From Pectinatus brassicae (GTDB taxonomy: Bacteria > Bacillota > Negativicutes > Selenomonadales > Selenomonadaceae), in NCBI RefSeq assembly GCF_014201835.1, contig NZ_JACHFH010000020.1, positions 1 through 55,580 on the forward strand: 55,580 bases of DNA, in the 5' to 3' direction. Of the stretch, positions 33,740-41,345 are shown piece by piece. The notes under the pieces are model-generated. The model worked only from the letters and a program-made list of their open reading frames with translations. It ran no database searches and was not told the DNA's origin. The first letter of the stretch is position 1. Every line of letters starts with the position of its first letter. The position numbers were made by a program, and so were the translations under genes.

Positions 33740-35065
33740 ATGGCTCAAAACGATTTGCATCATGTATGCAGTTTTTGTAAGCGTGATATAAAAATAACAA
33801 GTCAATATGACTTACCAATTTATGACCCGCAGACAGGCTTTGCAATTTGTAAAAATTGCATAAAAGACATTTATCAGTTGATTACTGATAATGAAGAAGA
33901 AAATGCTAAAATAGACAGACAAAGATTTATTAATGATTTGGACAGTGTGCTCGATAAAAATCGTCCGCATATTATTAAAGAATACCTTGATGAATATATT
34001 GTCAACCAGGACCATGCCAAGAAAATATTGGCGGTTGCTGTTTATAATCATTACAAACGCATGAAATGCATGGATAAAAAAGATAATGTAGATATCGAAA
34101 AATCCAATGTAATTATGATGGGACCGTCTGGTTGTGGTAAGACAGCAATGCTGTCACATTTAGCTAAATTGCTTGATATACCATTTGCGGTTACTGATGC
34201 TTCCAGCTTGACTGAAGCAGGGTTCGTTGGTGCTGATGTTGAAGTTGCTGTTCGTAATTTGTATTATGCAGCTAATAAGGACATTGAAAGAACGGAACAT
34301 GGCATTATTTACTTGGATGAATTTGATAAAATAGCCAGAAAATCAGGCGAAAATAATTCTATTACAGCAGATCCCGGCCATGAAGGTGTACAGCAGGCAC
34401 TTTTAAAAATGCTTGAGGGGAATGTCGTGGAATTTACAGCCAGAGGCCAAAGAAAACATCCAGAAGCACCAACTACTAAAATTGATACCACGAATATTTT
34501 ATTTATAGTTGGCGGGGCCTTTGTTGGCATTGAAAAAATTGTTGAAAGACGCTTGAAAAGCAATGATTCATCCATCGGATTTGGTGCTCAGGTAAAAGAC
34601 AAGAATGAAGACAGTAAATATGATGAATTAATAAAGCAGGTAACACCGGAAGACTTAATGAAATTTGGGATAATTCCTGAAATAATCGGTCGCCTGCCAA
34701 TTATTTGTACTTTAGGAACTCTTGATGAAGATGCTTTACTGCGTATTTTGACTGAACCAAAAAATGCGCCGGTTAAACAGTATGAAAAATTGATGTCCGT
34801 AGATAATGTTACGTTGAAATTTACTGAAGAAGCGCTGCGGGCTGTGTCTAAAAAGGCTATCGCCCGCAAAACTGGTGCGCGCAGTCTAAAAGGAATTTTA
34901 GAAGAAGCCATGCTTGATATTATGTATGAACTTCCTAAATCAAAGGAAAAACGCCAGGTAACAATTACCGCAGAGTGTATCGAAAAAAATGCTGCGCCGC
35001 AAATAGAAGTCTTAGCTTCAAATGAAGATGATTCAGTTGAAGAAAAAGATAATTTTGCTGGGTGA
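33740..35065 (+). CDS. ClpX-like AAA+ ATPase
   Basis: 441 aa. An N-terminal zinc finger has four cysteines (10, 13, 37, 40). The AAA+ core has Walker A GPSGCGKT (128-135), pore loop GFVG (161-164; GYVG in ClpX), Walker B IYLDEFDK (190-197), an RKH pore loop (238-240), an arginine finger in IGRLP, and sensor 2 GARSL. The IGF loop that docks ClpX to ClpP is kept (279-281). It is clearly ClpX family but diverges from ordinary ClpX, especially in the finger and linker, and clpP and tig are absent nearby. It may be a second, specialised ClpX. It is coupled to a deformylase-like gene. Confidence 0.85.
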   Translation: MAQNDLHHVCSFCKRDIKITSQYDLPIYDPQTGFAICKNCIKDIYQLITDNEEENAKIDRQRFINDLDSVLDKNRPHIIKEYLDEYIVNQDHAKKILAVAVYNHYKRMKCMDKKDNVDIEKSNVIMMGPSGCGKTAMLSHLAKLLDIPFAVTDASSLTEAGFVGADVEVAVRNLYYAANKDIERTEHGIIYLDEFDKIARKSGENNSITADPGHEGVQQALLKMLEGNVVEFTARGQRKHPEAPTTKIDTTNILFIVGGAFVGIEKIVERRLKSNDSSIGFGAQVKDKNEDSKYDELIKQVTPEDLMKFGIIPEIIGRLPIICTLGTLDEDALLRILTEPKNAPVKQYEKLMSVDNVTLKFTEEALRAVSKKAIARKTGARSLKGILEEAMLDIMYELPKSKEKRQVTITAECIEKNAAPQIEVLASNEDDSVEEKDNFAG

Positions 35066-35071
35066 TAAAAA

Positions 35072-35542
35072 ATGATAAAACCAGTACTAATATTGGGGAA
35101 TGATGACTTATACCAAAAGAGTCTGCCAGTGGGAAGCACTGAAGATATTACCAATATTGCAGCTGATTTGCAGGACACTTTAGCTGCTTGTCGAACACAA
35201 AATATAATGGCACTCACTGCACCGCAGATTGGTATAAAAAAGCGCATCATCTATATGCATATAGATGAACCAATTATATTCATAAATCCGCAATTGGTTT
35301 TTCCTATGCCGATGCTGCAGGAGGTTTGGACCAAGTCCCAGTCAATGCCGGGATTGTCGGTAAAGGTAAGACGCTATGAGCAGTGCAATGTTCATTTTAT
35401 GGATATAAACGGCCAAAAGCAGATTTTTTATCTGCAGGGTGAGCTGGCCAGCCTTATGCAGCAAAAATATGATTATCTTGAAGGAATACTGGCGACGATG
35501 CGCACTATTGACAGCAGATCATTTAAATTAATACAGTCTTAA
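35072..35542 (+). CDS. Peptide deformylase homologue lacking all catalytic residues
   Basis: 156 aa with the overall deformylase layout: a motif I remnant ALTAPQIG (47-54), FINPQLV, a motif II remnant PGLSV, and a motif III remnant QQKYDYLEG. The three metal ligands and catalytic acid are gone: cysteine to G94, histidines to Q131 and Y135, glutamate to K132. So it cannot be a normal deformylase. It starts 6 nt after the ClpX-like stop codon, so the two are made together. It may have kept only peptide binding, for example as an adaptor that recognises formyl-Met or other N-termini (speculative). Confidence 0.85.
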   Translation: MIKPVLILGNDDLYQKSLPVGSTEDITNIAADLQDTLAACRTQNIMALTAPQIGIKKRIIYMHIDEPIIFINPQLVFPMPMLQEVWTKSQSMPGLSVKVRRYEQCNVHFMDINGQKQIFYLQGELASLMQQKYDYLEGILATMRTIDSRSFKLIQS

Positions 35543-35697: not shown

Positions 35698-38172
35698 ATG
35701 AAGACGGTTATTATTGGTGGGGTTGCCGGCGGTGCTACTACTGCAGCCAGATTAAGACGACGCGATGAGTCCATGCAGATAGTGGTTTTGGAAAAAGGGC
35801 AATATATATCCTATGCCAATTGCGGACTTCCTTATTATATAGGTGATGTAATACAAGATCGGGAAAAACTATTGGTGCAGACGCCAGAAAAAATGCGCGA
35901 TAAATTTAATATTGACATTCGTGTAGAAAATGAAGTTATGCGCATTGAACCTGAAAAGAAAGTGGTAATGGTAAAAAATCTGCAGACAGGTGAAGAATAC
36001 CAGGAAAGTTATGATAAGTTGGTTATAGCTACTGGTTCGTCACCACTCAGACCACCGATTCCCGGTATAGAAAGTAAGCATATTAAGACTTTGTGGACCA
36101 TTCCTGACACCGACATCATTAAGCAGATTGTGACCGATAAAAAACCGCAGGAAGCGGTAGTTATCGGCGGAGGCTTTATCGGGTTGGAAATGGCAGAAAA
36201 TCTGCATGAAGCAGGTATTAAGGTTACATTGATTGAAGCACTTGATCAGGTAATGGCACCTGTTGATAAAGAACTGGCGCAGCTTTTGCATGAAAATATC
36301 GTACAAAATGATGTTGAGCTGATATTATCCGATGGTGTAAAGTCTTTTGAAGAACAGGCTGATAAAACAGTGATAAAGCTAAATAGTGGCAGGGAAGTAG
36401 CAGCTGAGCTGATTGTTTTATCAATTGGCGTTCGTCCCAACAGTGCTTTGGCTAAAGAGGCTGGATTGGCACTCAACCAACGCGGCGGTATAATTGTTGA
36501 TGAATATATGCAGACCGATAAAAAAGATATATATGCTGTTGGTGATGTCATTGAGGTAAATGAACCTATTTTAAAGGGACGCACCATGATTCCATTAGCA
36601 GGACCAGCTAATAAGCAGGCACGAATATGTGCCGATAATATCGTCGGTGATGCTAAGCGTTATGAAGGAACATATGGTACAGCTATTGCTCAGGTATTTG
36701 ATATGAATGCTGCCAGTGTCGGTATGAATGAAAAAACACTGCAGCGTATGGGGAAACAAAAAAATCAGGATTATTATGTGGCGCTTATCAGTCAAAAATC
36801 ACATGCCGGATATTATCCTGATGCCGAAAATATGATTTTAAAAATGTTATTTACTGCGGCAGGAAAAATACTTGGGGCGCAGATTGTCGGACAGGCAGGT
36901 GTCGATAAAAGAATTGATACTATTGCCTCAGTAATGCAGCTTAATGGTGATATATACGGTTTGCAGCAGCTGGAACTTGCCTATGCACCGCCGTTTTCAT
37001 CGGCGAAAGATCCGGTTAATATGCTGGGTTTTGTTGCTGGAAATATTTTAAATGGCTTGGTTAAATTTGTCAGCACAAGTGAATTTGATGAGTTGAAAAC
37101 GGATGAAAATACCGTTGTTTTAGATATAACCGAAGACATCGAATACATGGTTTATCATATCGAAGGAGCTGTCCATATTCCTTGGGGGCAGTTGCGGCAG
37201 CAGCTTAACGAGCTTGATAAAAATAAGAAAATAGTAGTTTATTGTGCTATCGGCGTTCGCTCATATAATGCGGCCAGAACCTTGATGCAGGAAGGATTTA
37301 GCGATGTCTATGTGCTTGAAGGAGGTACGGGTTTTTACAAATCACAGCATTTTGTTAAGCCCAATATTGCAGCTGCGGTGAAGAGTGTAAGTAAAACAGC
37401 AGAAGAAGAAAAAAAAGACGAAATACCGCAAATAGATATAAAATCACTTGATTGTACAGGATTGCAGTGCCCAGGTCCAATAATGCGGGTAAATCAGACT
37501 GTTAATAAAATGAATGCTGGCGAAATAGTCAAAGTGGCTGCTACTGATATGGGTTTTATTCGCGATATTTCATCATGGTGTGAAAAAACAGGTAATACAC
37601 TGGTTAAAAGCGAACGCGATGGAAAAAAATATCTGGCCTATATTCGTAAGGGACAGTCAGATACAGTGGTGAAGGCTCAGCCAGCAGCAGTTAATGCAGC
37701 ACCTAAAGGCAAGACTATGGTCGTATTTAGTAACGATCTTGATAAGGCGTTTGCATCATTTATAATTGCTAACGGTGCAGCTGCTATGGGACGGCCAGTC
37801 ACGATGTTCTTTACTTTTTGGGGTCTTAATATACTGCGCAGGAATAATCCACCGGCAGTAAAAAAATCGTTTATCGAAAAAATGTTTGGCTCGATGATGC
37901 CGCAGGGTGTTGATAAACTTACTATCTCCAAGATGAACATGGGTGGCATGGGGACAAAGATGATGAAAAAAATAATGAAGGATAAAAATGTTGCTTCATT
38001 AGATGAACTCATCGCCCAGGCTCAAGCTAATGGCGTAAAAATGATCGCCTGCACAATGTCAATGGATGTAATGGGGATTAAAAAAGAAGAATTAATTGAT
38101 GGTGTGGAATTCGGTGGTGTAGCTGCTTATTTGGGCGAAGCGGAAGATTCCAATGTAAATTTATTTATTTAA
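35698..38172 (+). CDS. CoA-disulfide reductase fused to rhodanese, TusA and DsrE-like domains
   Basis: 824 aa. Residues 1-445 are a flavoprotein disulfide reductase with FAD motif IIGGVAGGATTAAR, redox Cys42 (SYANCGLPYY) and NAD motif VIGGGFIGLEMAE. About 460-555 are a rhodanese with active Cys516 (YCAIGVRS). About 580-655 are TusA-like with CP motif at Cys591 (LQCPGP). About 670-824 are DsrE/F-like with Cys785. This arrangement suggests that persulfide sulfur is passed along one chain while CoA or polysulfide is reduced. A strong GGAGG precedes the ATG. It is alone, convergent with a Crp-type gene. Length is far beyond plain CoA-disulfide reductases (about 440-550). Confidence 0.92.
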   Translation: MKTVIIGGVAGGATTAARLRRRDESMQIVVLEKGQYISYANCGLPYYIGDVIQDREKLLVQTPEKMRDKFNIDIRVENEVMRIEPEKKVVMVKNLQTGEEYQESYDKLVIATGSSPLRPPIPGIESKHIKTLWTIPDTDIIKQIVTDKKPQEAVVIGGGFIGLEMAENLHEAGIKVTLIEALDQVMAPVDKELAQLLHENIVQNDVELILSDGVKSFEEQADKTVIKLNSGREVAAELIVLSIGVRPNSALAKEAGLALNQRGGIIVDEYMQTDKKDIYAVGDVIEVNEPILKGRTMIPLAGPANKQARICADNIVGDAKRYEGTYGTAIAQVFDMNAASVGMNEKTLQRMGKQKNQDYYVALISQKSHAGYYPDAENMILKMLFTAAGKILGAQIVGQAGVDKRIDTIASVMQLNGDIYGLQQLELAYAPPFSSAKDPVNMLGFVAGNILNGLVKFVSTSEFDELKTDENTVVLDITEDIEYMVYHIEGAVHIPWGQLRQQLNELDKNKKIVVYCAIGVRSYNAARTLMQEGFSDVYVLEGGTGFYKSQHFVKPNIAAAVKSVSKTAEEEKKDEIPQIDIKSLDCTGLQCPGPIMRVNQTVNKMNAGEIVKVAATDMGFIRDISSWCEKTGNTLVKSERDGKKYLAYIRKGQSDTVVKAQPAAVNAAPKGKTMVVFSNDLDKAFASFIIANGAAAMGRPVTMFFTFWGLNILRRNNPPAVKKSFIEKMFGSMMPQGVDKLTISKMNMGGMGTKMMKKIMKDKNVASLDELIAQAQANGVKMIACTMSMDVMGIKKEELIDGVEFGGVAAYLGEAEDSNVNLFI

Positions 38173-38314: not shown

Positions 38315-38986
38315 TTATATTAATTTATTTAAGCCGGACTTGTCAATGATTTTTATTTGGCCGCGTGATAAATGTACTAATCCTTCAGTAGAGAAATATT
38401 TGAGCATGCGGGAAACGACTTCACGGGCACTGCCCATTAGCTTGGCTATTTGTTCGTGGGTCATATGGAGTGTATCAGAGGTGGTGTTTTTGCTTTCACT
38501 TAGTAAAAATAAGGCCAGCCTTTTATCAAAACTCATAAATAATATTTGCTGCAATGTCCACATGGCATCGGCAAAACGTTCGGTAGCTTCTTTATAGGCA
38601 AATGCTTCAAGATAGATGTTTTCTTTCATTACTTGGGCAAAAGCAGCTGGTGCGATGATTAGTATATCTGAGTCGGTAATTGAATCAATATAAATATCAA
38701 AGGTAATGCTCTGTAAGACGCAGGTGGCCGCCAGTAGGCATAAATCATTTTTATTCAACCGATACAAGGTGACTTCCCGTCCATCAACTGAATTAATATA
38801 GATGCGCAATGAGCCGGATTTTACAAATAATATTCCCATGCATTCAGAACCACTGGCATGGATAAAATCATTGGAAGAATAGTGAACAATCCGAGAACTA
38901 TCAATAAGCGTCTGTTGCTGTCCAGATGATAATTTATCCCAGCAGTCAATATGGCTTTTTAAAAGCAAACGTATTTCTTCTTGCAT
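38315..38986 (-). CDS. Crp/Fnr family transcriptional regulator
   Basis: 223 aa with a cyclic-nucleotide-type sensor domain (FVKSGSLRIYI, LNKNDLCLL) and a C-terminal Crp helix-turn-helix (THEQIAKLMGSAREVVSRMLKYF). A lone cysteine pair is not arranged as in Fnr. Neighbouring CoA-disulfide reductase-type genes next to such regulators suggest control of sulfur or redox genes (inference). It is flanked on both sides by the same intergenic repeat. Start follows AAAAAGGA. Confidence 0.87.
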   Translation of the reverse strand: MQEEIRLLLKSHIDCWDKLSSGQQQTLIDSSRIVHYSSNDFIHASGSECMGILFVKSGSLRIYINSVDGREVTLYRLNKNDLCLLAATCVLQSITFDIYIDSITDSDILIIAPAAFAQVMKENIYLEAFAYKEATERFADAMWTLQQILFMSFDKRLALFLLSESKNTTSDTLHMTHEQIAKLMGSAREVVSRMLKYFSTEGLVHLSRGQIKIIDKSGLNKLI

Positions 38987-39235: not shown

Positions 39236-40945
39236 TTATTGAGCCGGAGCAAAACGTATCTGCGTATCGTAGTTCTTGCCCTGCACCATACGGGGACGAG
39301 TTGCATTAAATAACGGGTTTATAATACTTTTAGCCGGTTTATATTCTGTGGTTTTAATGTCAGCGATATCAAGGACCGTGTGAATCATATCATCGGTCAT
39401 ATAGGGGCGTTGTACAGCATTTTTAATAGCAAGCCATTTAGCAGGATAAGCCTGTTTGAATTTATCTGAAGCCCACATAATCATGGGAACTTCCAGCATG
39501 TAGTGATTGGGATTTTCTTCGACATGACCGGCAAAGTTACTGTTGTCATCGTAGACTGTCTCACCATGGTCAGGCAGATAAATTATAATAGCATTTTGCT
39601 GCTTAAATTTATCAATTATACCGCTTACTATATAATCATTATAATATAAAGCATTAGTATATTGCGCTAAAACAACTTTTTTTTCATCGGAGACATTACG
39701 CGGGATATCGTTTTTACTGAATTTGGAGAAAATATAAGGAAATCTTTTATAATAAAGGCTGTGTCCGCCCATTAGATGTATTACATAAAAATTCTTGACG
39801 GCATGATTGGCAATAGCCTTATCAACAATGGGGAATAAAGCACCATCAAGAGTATTGGAAGCTTCGTGGGAATCACGTACGCTGGTGAATTGATGTACCG
39901 TGCTGCGGTTAGCATAAAGCAGGGCAACATTGCCCCATATACCGGAGCTTTCCTGATTGGATAGCCAGTAGGTTTTATAGCCGGCTTGCTGCATGATATC
40001 AATAAGATTATTGTATTGATACCAGGGCTTTTGTGACTCAGCATCACAAAAGGTGAATAAATCACGCAGTACAGCGACGGTAGTAGAATGTGGACTAATA
40101 CAATCCTTAAAAACAGCCAGCTGTTGATTTTTGTTTAAATTATCAAGATTGGGTGTATTGGGCAAAGGGTAGCCATATAAATGCATATGGTTGCGGTTGG
40201 TGGCTTCGCCCAATATAAAGACAATATTGGGGATAGTGCTGTTATTAGCAGTGATGTCTTTGCTGGCAGCCATTTTGTTGTTGAGTTCACCATAGCTTTT
40301 CATGTTAGCAACAGCCGTTTGGGCTGAGGCATATACCCTGACAATGGGAATATCAAGATCATTGCTTTTGATAAAAGGTTTATAATTATTTACTAAGCAG
40401 ACACCAGATAAAATTCCCAGGACAATAATACAGCCCATTATATAGCCGAGACGCGGCTGGTATATTTTTAGATGAGTTTTTGCCAGAAAATTTTTTTGTA
40501 AAATAAAAGTGAACAGAGCAAAAATAAATGTATAAATAAGCCAATGCCAGCCGATATACATTTGAAAAAATTCGCTGGCCTCTTCACTATTCGTTTCAAG
40601 CAGCGCAGTTATTATGCCGGCACCGACTGGGGCATTGTAATTGTAAAATGAAAAAAATTCGGCCAGACATAATAGCGCACAAATATAAAAAATACTATTG
40701 CTTAAGATTTTGCGAATTATTCCTGAGGGAATAGCGGTTAATATAATACTTATTATTAGTGTTACTGCCAGCAGAAATAAGCCATCTAACAGCATGAGCT
40801 TATATTCTTGTATTTGCCAAAGGGAACGGGCAATAGAAAAATAATTAAATAAAAACAAGCCGATTATAAAACCCATATTATTTTTTAATACATTGTGCCA
40901 TGCAGGCTGCTGCAATATTGCTGCAAATTTTTTTATTATATTCAT
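39236..40945 (-). CDS. Phosphoethanolamine transferase (sulfatase fold, EptA/CptA-like)
   Basis: 569 aa from ATG 40945, which has GAGGT 6 nt upstream; a frame extending to 41125 has no ribosome site. Five hydrophobic N-terminal segments anchor a periplasmic alkaline-phosphatase-type domain. Catalytic features are FILGEATNRNHM, a nucleophile threonine in SPHSTTVAV, YLPDHGETVYDD and HVEENPNH. It probably adds phosphoethanolamine to lipid A or LPS core, which implies an outer membrane. Divergent from valS. Confidence 0.88.
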   Translation of the reverse strand: MNIIKKFAAILQQPAWHNVLKNNMGFIIGLFLFNYFSIARSLWQIQEYKLMLLDGLFLLAVTLIISIILTAIPSGIIRKILSNSIFYICALLCLAEFFSFYNYNAPVGAGIITALLETNSEEASEFFQMYIGWHWLIYTFIFALFTFILQKNFLAKTHLKIYQPRLGYIMGCIIVLGILSGVCLVNNYKPFIKSNDLDIPIVRVYASAQTAVANMKSYGELNNKMAASKDITANNSTIPNIVFILGEATNRNHMHLYGYPLPNTPNLDNLNKNQQLAVFKDCISPHSTTVAVLRDLFTFCDAESQKPWYQYNNLIDIMQQAGYKTYWLSNQESSGIWGNVALLYANRSTVHQFTSVRDSHEASNTLDGALFPIVDKAIANHAVKNFYVIHLMGGHSLYYKRFPYIFSKFSKNDIPRNVSDEKKVVLAQYTNALYYNDYIVSGIIDKFKQQNAIIIYLPDHGETVYDDNSNFAGHVEENPNHYMLEVPMIMWASDKFKQAYPAKWLAIKNAVQRPYMTDDMIHTVLDIADIKTTEYKPAKSIINPLFNATRPRMVQGKNYDTQIRFAPAQ

Positions 40946-41088
40946 CGTTTTACCTCGTATTAATGAAGAAAGCATTGTTAAATTTTCGTTAATATTATAA
41001 CACTTTTTGCAAAAAGAAAAATAATATATTATACAGTAATAAAATGAATATAGGGCTGGAAGTTGTTTTTTCATGTGGTTTATGATAA

Positions 41089-41345
41089 TATAATGGCATT
41101 GAAATATATTATCGGCAATGAACAAGAGTGTATAAATGGAGAGCTTACAGAGAAAAAGTTATTAGCTGAGAGACTTTTGCCTGGAAATTTATATTGTAGC
41201 TTGGGAGCTTTTGTGATGAATGAATAGTAGTTACAAACGCGGATGCGGCGTTAAGCTGATAAGCTTTGCCTTTGGGCAGAGAAATTTAGGTGGTACCACG
41301 GAAGTTTACTCTTTCGTCCTTATTAGGACGGAGGAGTTTTTTATA
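41089..41345 (+). promoter_or_regulatory. T-box riboswitch of valS
   Basis: TATAAT (41089-41094) begins the transcript. Stem I carries the AGAGTG motif and a 3' side with specifier GTA (valine, 41196-41198). The T-box sequence AGGTGGTACCACGG (41288-41301) has the TGGT bulge (41291-41294), which fits tRNA-Val with discriminator A. A terminator (41309-41342) precedes the gene. Uncharged tRNA-Val allows transcription. Confidence 0.92.

Follow-up and report, generated by a model that had tools for sequence, protein, structure and literature searches.

A family-wide second ClpX unfoldase of the Selenomonadaceae and a probably non-catalytic deformylase homologue encoded behind it in Pectinatus brassicae

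The IGF loop of canonical ClpX is the site of docking on ClpP. Deformylase structures show the formyl group bound at the metal, with the peptide paired to the strand of motif I, and the complex of deformylase with the ribosome is established. Extra clpX copies that lie away from clpP and have divergent functions are described for Myxococcus xanthus (ClpX1-3), according to the accessible part of the report (PMC11423568). For the N-terminal formyl-methionine of nascent proteins, a bacterial fMet/N-recognin has been postulated in the excerpted text of one study (PMC4745127), and a 2026 review, in its accessible part, names candidate proteases for this question (PMC13234167). Among the titles and abstract openings of the open-access matches listed, we could not find any description of a second ClpX of the Selenomonadaceae or of a gene pair such as the one reported here, and the open-access searches returned no paper on a deformylase pseudoenzyme and none on Pectinatus with clpX.

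The second ClpX of the Selenomonadaceae

The DNA analysed here (the window) is a stretch of 55,580 nucleotides from P. brassicae. One of its genes, clpX2, encodes an unfoldase of the ClpX type, with the following features.

33740..35065 (+): clpX2, second ClpX unfoldase of the Selenomonadaceae, 441 aa, full-length
33767..33859 (+): N-terminal four-cysteine zinc finger of clpX2 (C10, C13, C37, C40), with a longer loop than in canonical ClpX
34121..34144 (+): Walker A GPSGCGKT of clpX2 (canonical GPTGSGKT), in 94 of 94 distinct ClpX2 frames, compared with six ClpX1
34214..34243 (+): pore-1 loop GFVG of clpX2 (canonical GYVG), in 94 of 94 frames, compared with six ClpX1
34364..34396 (+): ClpX2 signature TADPGHEGVQQ (canonical TRDVSGEGVQQ), from comparison with six ClpX1
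34568..34585 (+): IGF loop of clpX2, in 93 of 94 frames
35060..35065 (+): GGGTGA, end of clpX2 including the stop codon, by comparison possibly Shine-Dalgarno-like for the gene that follows

The product exceeds both NCBIfam clpX cut-offs (518 against 359 bits, and 488.1 against 370.75 bits), and its four cysteines, Walker A and B, pore-1 GFVG, RKH, IGF, GRLP and TGAR are all present. An earlier note, made from the letters of the window, had described an ATPase that keeps the zinc finger, the Walker motifs, the pore loops and the IGF loop, and the motif comparison agrees with it. Relative to six canonical ClpX1 proteins of the family, ClpX2 has a longer zinc-finger loop, GFVG in place of GYVG and TADPGHE in place of TRDVSGE; by E. 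coli numbering, we take the TADPGHEGVQQ site to be the pore-2 region.

These features are conserved in the 94 distinct ClpX2 frames that were collected. GPSGCGKT, GFVG, TADPGHE and RKH occur in every one of them, although the figure for the TADPGHEGVQQ signature is partly circular because the frames were picked by GHEGVQQ. By functional element, Walker A, Walker B, the pore-1 aromatic, RKH, the arginine finger and sensor II are found in 94, 94, 94, 94, 93 and 91 frames, respectively, an IGF-type loop and GRLP in 93 each, and TGAR in 91. The four cysteines are recognized in 89 frames; of the five others, four start after the zinc finger and one is odd in that region. PADLOC gave only weak AAA-type matches for ClpX2 (best E-value 1.1e-8) and none for the downstream deformylase homologue, and in PHROGs ClpX2 matched phrog_4339, a large family of unknown function (312.7 bits), as a general relative.

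With the P. brassicae protein as the query (E ≤ 1e-140), ClpX2 was detected in 105 of the 107 Selenomonadaceae and in none of the 145 other genomes, in a sample of 252 genomes of the class that are at least 90% complete (the family total being taken from the genome table). In the phylum sample, 11 of 398 genomes matched at E ≤ 1e-130, all of them Selenomonadaceae. Relatives of ClpX2 score 512–855 bits, against 427.5 bits for the best ClpX outside the family among the matches listed; the orthologues are 84–87% identical in four other Pectinatus and 66–78% identical in the remaining family genomes listed. A nucleotide pattern for the signature hit 88 stretches in named genomes, and the 80 matches listed all carry Selenomonadaceae-type titles, namely Selenomonas, Anaerovibrio, Mitsuokella, Megamonas, Propionispira, Pectinatus and Centipeda, together with unclassified Selenomonadaceae, Selenomonadales or Veillonellaceae; because the pattern was derived from ClpX2 itself, its absence elsewhere holds solely for the exact signature.

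In a tree of eight ClpX2 and 36 other ClpX sequences, ClpX2 is split off with a support of 100 and a length of 1.09, and is not joined to the family's own ClpX1, which rules out a recent duplication of the canonical clpX of the family.

The two family genomes in which ClpX2 was missed at E ≤ 1e-140 (G069 and G101) are single-contig assemblies of one genus, g8, whose other listed members have it. These absences, probably losses, mean that at least these two bacteria can do without ClpX2. No operon partner was seen to be conserved: clpX2 is usually without a same-strand partner, and the largest groups of downstream neighbours lie on the opposite strand. Operators of the CtsR or CIRCE heat-shock type were matched neither upstream of clpX2 at four Pectinatus loci nor in the region of the canonical clpX of P. 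brassicae.

The gene pair in Pectinatus

Six nucleotides after the clpX2 stop codon and on the same strand, in agreement with the earlier note, a deformylase-like frame begins, which is called PDF2 here.

35072..35542 (+): PDF2, predicted non-catalytic peptide deformylase homologue, 156 aa, frame open over the full length
35201..35233 (+): degenerate motif I, NIM--ALTAPQIG (relatives AGRAIAAPQIG), from alignment with relatives
35327..35356 (+): degenerate motif II, WTKSQSMPGL (relatives WDDCMSLPGL), C to S at 89, from alignment with relatives
35453..35485 (+): degenerate motif III, LMQQKYDYLEG (relatives QHEYDHLEG), with H131Q, E132K and H135Y, from alignment with relatives

The clpX2 genes of P. 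haikarae and P. cerevisiiphilus end in GGGGTGA, that of P. frisingensis ends in GGATGA, and in a fifth Pectinatus genome (G067), which has no PDF2, the end is GGATAA. By its letters, this end may act as the Shine-Dalgarno sequence for PDF2, and PDF2 is probably translated together with clpX2.

PDF2 orthologues (E ≤ 1e-30) exist in only seven of 151 family genomes. In P. haikarae (G034), P. cerevisiiphilus (G005) and P. frisingensis (G054), PDF2 stands directly behind clpX2 as in P. brassicae, and in G015, G024 and G048 the two genes are on different contigs. Of 119 ClpX2 loci, seven show the pair; they come from four of the five Pectinatus genomes, and no other genus had it (some genomes are included twice, and 109 of the 119 loci show at least 500 nt downstream). 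In G067, PDF2 was found neither behind clpX2 nor elsewhere in the genome at E ≤ 1e-30; since the trees within Pectinatus are weakly supported (48–96%), this species may have lost PDF2 or may never have had it.

The PDF2 of P. haikarae, P. cerevisiiphilus and P. frisingensis, 56–60% identical to that of P. brassicae, keep all of the catalytic residues (WDDCMSLP, QHEYDHLEG). With the catalytic residues complete in three of the four Pectinatus PDF2 and the fifth species without the gene, the dead active site, as read from the alignment, is private to P. brassicae among the pairs. In the phylum, a profile of the active-type PDF2 matched 20 of 299 genomes (E ≤ 1e-25), so that this kind of deformylase is sporadic there. 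Seventeen of the 20 matches keep the Cys, His, Glu and His residues, including L235 and L236, which have canonical def motifs; the other three are P. brassicae itself, L223, whose sequence was not extracted, and L234, which has no motif III in the alignment. A search of named genomes with the P. brassicae PDF2 as the query gave no relative.

Both canonical counterparts are present elsewhere in the P. brassicae genome. The canonical clpX, 50% identical to clpX2, lies beside clpP, and its neighbour on the other side is presumably lon; in this genome, the only one checked in this respect, one clpP-family gene was found. Besides PDF2 there are two further deformylase-family (PF01327) loci. The intact def (EGCLS, QHEIDHLEG) lies between what we take to be fmt and priA. 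The other (L048:4365-4778, plus strand) is a third deformylase-family gene of 137 aa, which keeps QHEIDH, has ENCLS as motif II and lacks the usual PQ in motif I.

Several side observations concern the neighbourhood. Downstream of the pair, an 824-aa fusion of pyridine-nucleotide disulphide reductase, rhodanese, TusA and DsrE-like domains is encoded at 35698-38172 (+); in G067, the same flavoprotein fusion gene follows clpX2 itself. A Crp/Fnr-type regulator with cNMP-binding and HTH domains (38315-38986, minus strand) is convergent to the fusion gene, and a sulfatase-family protein (PF00884) is encoded at 39236-41125 (-). In P. haikarae and P. cerevisiiphilus, a sulfatase-like gene comes directly after PDF2, with no fusion gene between. 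In P. cerevisiiphilus C18 (G005; L095/L096), a Lon query matched two overlapping pieces in different frames, owing to an assembly error or a real frameshift.

The altered active site of PDF2 and the selection on it

PDF2 matches PF01327 (Pep_deformylase) with 95.4 bits (E-value 3.5e-27; cut-off 22.8), and six NCBIfam deformylase models below their cut-offs (best, 65.4 against 190 bits). The top 50 Foldseek hits of its structural model were all deformylases, and the AlphaFold models of P. brassicae PDF2 and of the P. haikarae control, built from equally shallow alignments, have mean pLDDT values of 66 and 68 and do not tell a sound active site from a damaged one, for which reason they are given no weight here. 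In PHROGs, PDF2 matched a phage deformylase family (65.5 bits), as a general relative. A phage origin was rejected, no viral relative having been found, and so was a plasmid origin, five plasmid records being 36–47% identical.

In P. brassicae PDF2, the metal ligands Cys, His and His are replaced by S89, Q131 and Y135, and the catalytic Glu by K132. The earlier note had reported losses at Q131, K132 and Y135, which hold, and had placed the lost cysteine at G94; the ligand position is S89 instead (DDCMS to TKSQS), position 94 being Gly in all four Pectinatus PDF2. Damage to motif I, absent from that note, consists of the loss of two residues (GR) and an A-to-T change at 49. From these replacements, P. 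brassicae PDF2 would have no deformylase activity.

The changes are concentrated in the catalytic motifs. Six relatives, including G024 and G048 with 98% identity to each other, agree at 65 positions, and P. brassicae PDF2 differs from them at 14; 10 of these fall among the 17 invariant positions in motifs I–III (defined as 8, 5 and 5 columns) and four among the 48 elsewhere (Fisher p = 6.6e-5). Outside the motifs, it is 57–62% identical to its siblings, which are 67–71% identical to one another.

Omega was estimated with a home-made codon model of the MG94 type, on a six-taxon set (G048 left out) and a genus-only set. For the whole gene on the P. brassicae branch, it was 0.14 (six taxa) and 0.19 (genus), with omega = 1 rejected at p = 0.003 and 0.010, and with G054 as the test branch, as a control, it was 0.05. 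For the non-motif part, the values were 0.007 and 0.13 (omega = 1 rejected at p = 0.0008 and 0.005); the spread between the taxon sets makes the estimates rough and that for the non-motif part unstable. The P. brassicae branch did not differ significantly from the background in any run (p = 0.23–0.59). A branch average mixes the time before and after the catalytic loss, which it thus cannot date. The protein branch of P. brassicae is long (0.61, or 0.53 without the motifs, against 0.11–0.25 for the siblings), so that partial relaxation outside the motifs is possible. Homology over its length, together with the whole-gene omega of 0.14–0.19 and the rejection of neutrality, marks PDF2 as a real coding frame, and the P. 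brassicae copy does not look like simple decay or a neutral pseudogene. The earlier note had named a genome without another clpX, a pair confined to one strain and a recent decay without purifying selection as findings that would speak against it; with the pair in four Pectinatus, the canonical clpX and def elsewhere in the genome and neutrality of the non-motif part rejected, none of these was found.

Interpretation and comparison with known systems

The best explanation, to which we give a probability of about 0.6, is that ClpX2 is a family-wide second unfoldase, present since the ancestor of the Selenomonadaceae, and that the PDF2 of P. brassicae is a constrained pseudoenzyme encoded behind it. 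ClpX2 would most likely form a hexamer, dock on the single ClpP of the cell, as its conserved IGF loops suggest, and handle a set of substrates different from that of canonical ClpX, because the two differ in the zinc-finger domain and in the regions of the pore loops. The accessory deformylase gene, ancestrally of the active type, would have come to lie behind clpX2 in Pectinatus; in P. brassicae, with two other deformylase-family genes remaining, catalysis would have been lost and the rest of PDF2 kept under purifying selection. The role of the pseudoenzyme would most simply be a protein–protein contact that was kept, be it to the ribosome, to ClpX2 or to another partner. The damage to both the metal site and motif I favours such a retained non-catalytic protein, which PDF2 probably is, and leaves decay as the main rival.

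Under decay in progress, PDF2 would be redundant in Pectinatus, the P. brassicae copy functionless and G067 the end state. The two other PF01327 loci, the lack of PDF2 in G067 and the P. brassicae branch being the longest of the Pectinatus PDF2 are in keeping with this, whereas the clustering of the changes in the motifs, with 44 of the 48 other invariant positions kept, the rejection of omega = 1 for the non-motif part and the frame open along its full length argue against it, and we consider it unlikely. PDF2 might instead keep a role at the ribosome surface unrelated to ClpX2, in which, as an inert competitor, it would slow deformylation or shield nascent chains; the conserved positions outside the catalytic motifs and the known binding of deformylases to the ribosome agree with this idea, which we nevertheless rate as improbable.

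The earlier note had proposed an adaptor: PDF2 would recognize N-terminal (formyl-)Met or nascent chains and deliver them to ClpX2–ClpP, as an fMet/N-recognin might. The only positive support for it, as far as the sequences go, is the gene order, which is the same in four Pectinatus with a close and possibly Shine-Dalgarno-coupled junction, and the retention of the fold, PDF2 having been kept under constraint without catalysis. However, the deformylase is intact in three of the four pairs, one Pectinatus has no PDF2 and no other genus places it beside clpX2, so that the conserved system of unfoldase and dead deformylase envisaged there is not borne out. The co-occurrence expected of an adaptor is not seen either (PDF2 in 7 of 151 family genomes, ClpX2 in 105 of 107, adjacent only in four Pectinatus), and in the 11 of the 18 PDF2-bearing genomes outside the family that were also surveyed for ClpX, there is a single, canonical-scoring ClpX. 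Motif I being damaged along with the metal site, binding of (formyl-)Met peptides by P. brassicae PDF2 is argued against, which weakens the notion that the pseudo-enzyme still binds them. Moreover, ClpXP is called an unlikely fMet/N-recognin because its in vitro activity is independent of N-terminal formylation (PMC4745127, excerpted text). On balance, the adaptor is a doubtful candidate with little chance of being right. Its boldest form, in which PDF2, by losing the metal centre, became a dedicated substrate receptor of ClpX2–ClpP that reads N-termini or ribosome-bound nascent chains and is the missing fMet/N-recognin, the active deformylases that its sisters encode at this position representing the ancestral, competing enzyme, would be more speculative still, and we regard it as very improbable.

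The second ClpX is thus the broader and firmer result, and the combination of an unfoldase with a dead deformylase is the one-species state of a four-species pair. ClpX2 is a near-universal second ClpX of one family, with conserved changes in the N-domain and the pore-loop regions and an intact ClpP-docking loop, and in the one genome checked there is a single ClpP to share with canonical ClpX; it would offer a natural experiment on changes of substrate choice in AAA+ unfoldases. As active-type sisters of the PDF2 pseudoenzyme occupy the same place in relatives, what survives the loss of the metal site in a metallo-deformylase is directly testable.

Among the known systems, the accessory PF01327 deformylases with D(D/S)C(M/F)S as motif II belong to the same family as PDF2; in the alignment (one further row of which ends before motif III), only the P. 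brassicae protein has lost the Cys, both His, the Glu and two residues of motif I. The postulated fMet/N-recognin is a hypothetical analogue, through which the recognition of formyl-Met would be coupled to an AAA+ protease. Canonical ClpX (E. coli PDB chains) aligns with ClpX2 over most of its length, sharing Walker A and B, RKH, IGF, GRLP and TGAR, and the zinc finger is found in both ClpX2 and the canonical ClpX of P. brassicae itself; the longer zinc-finger loop, GFVG and TADPGHE set ClpX2 apart, as does its position, for canonical clpX lies beside clpP, whereas clpX2 lies away from it and is confined to the Selenomonadaceae in the samples. M. xanthus ClpX1-3, likened here by description, provide a precedent for a specialised second ClpX; that bacterium has two ClpP according to the accessible text (PMC11423568), whereas P. 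brassicae has one clpP-family gene.
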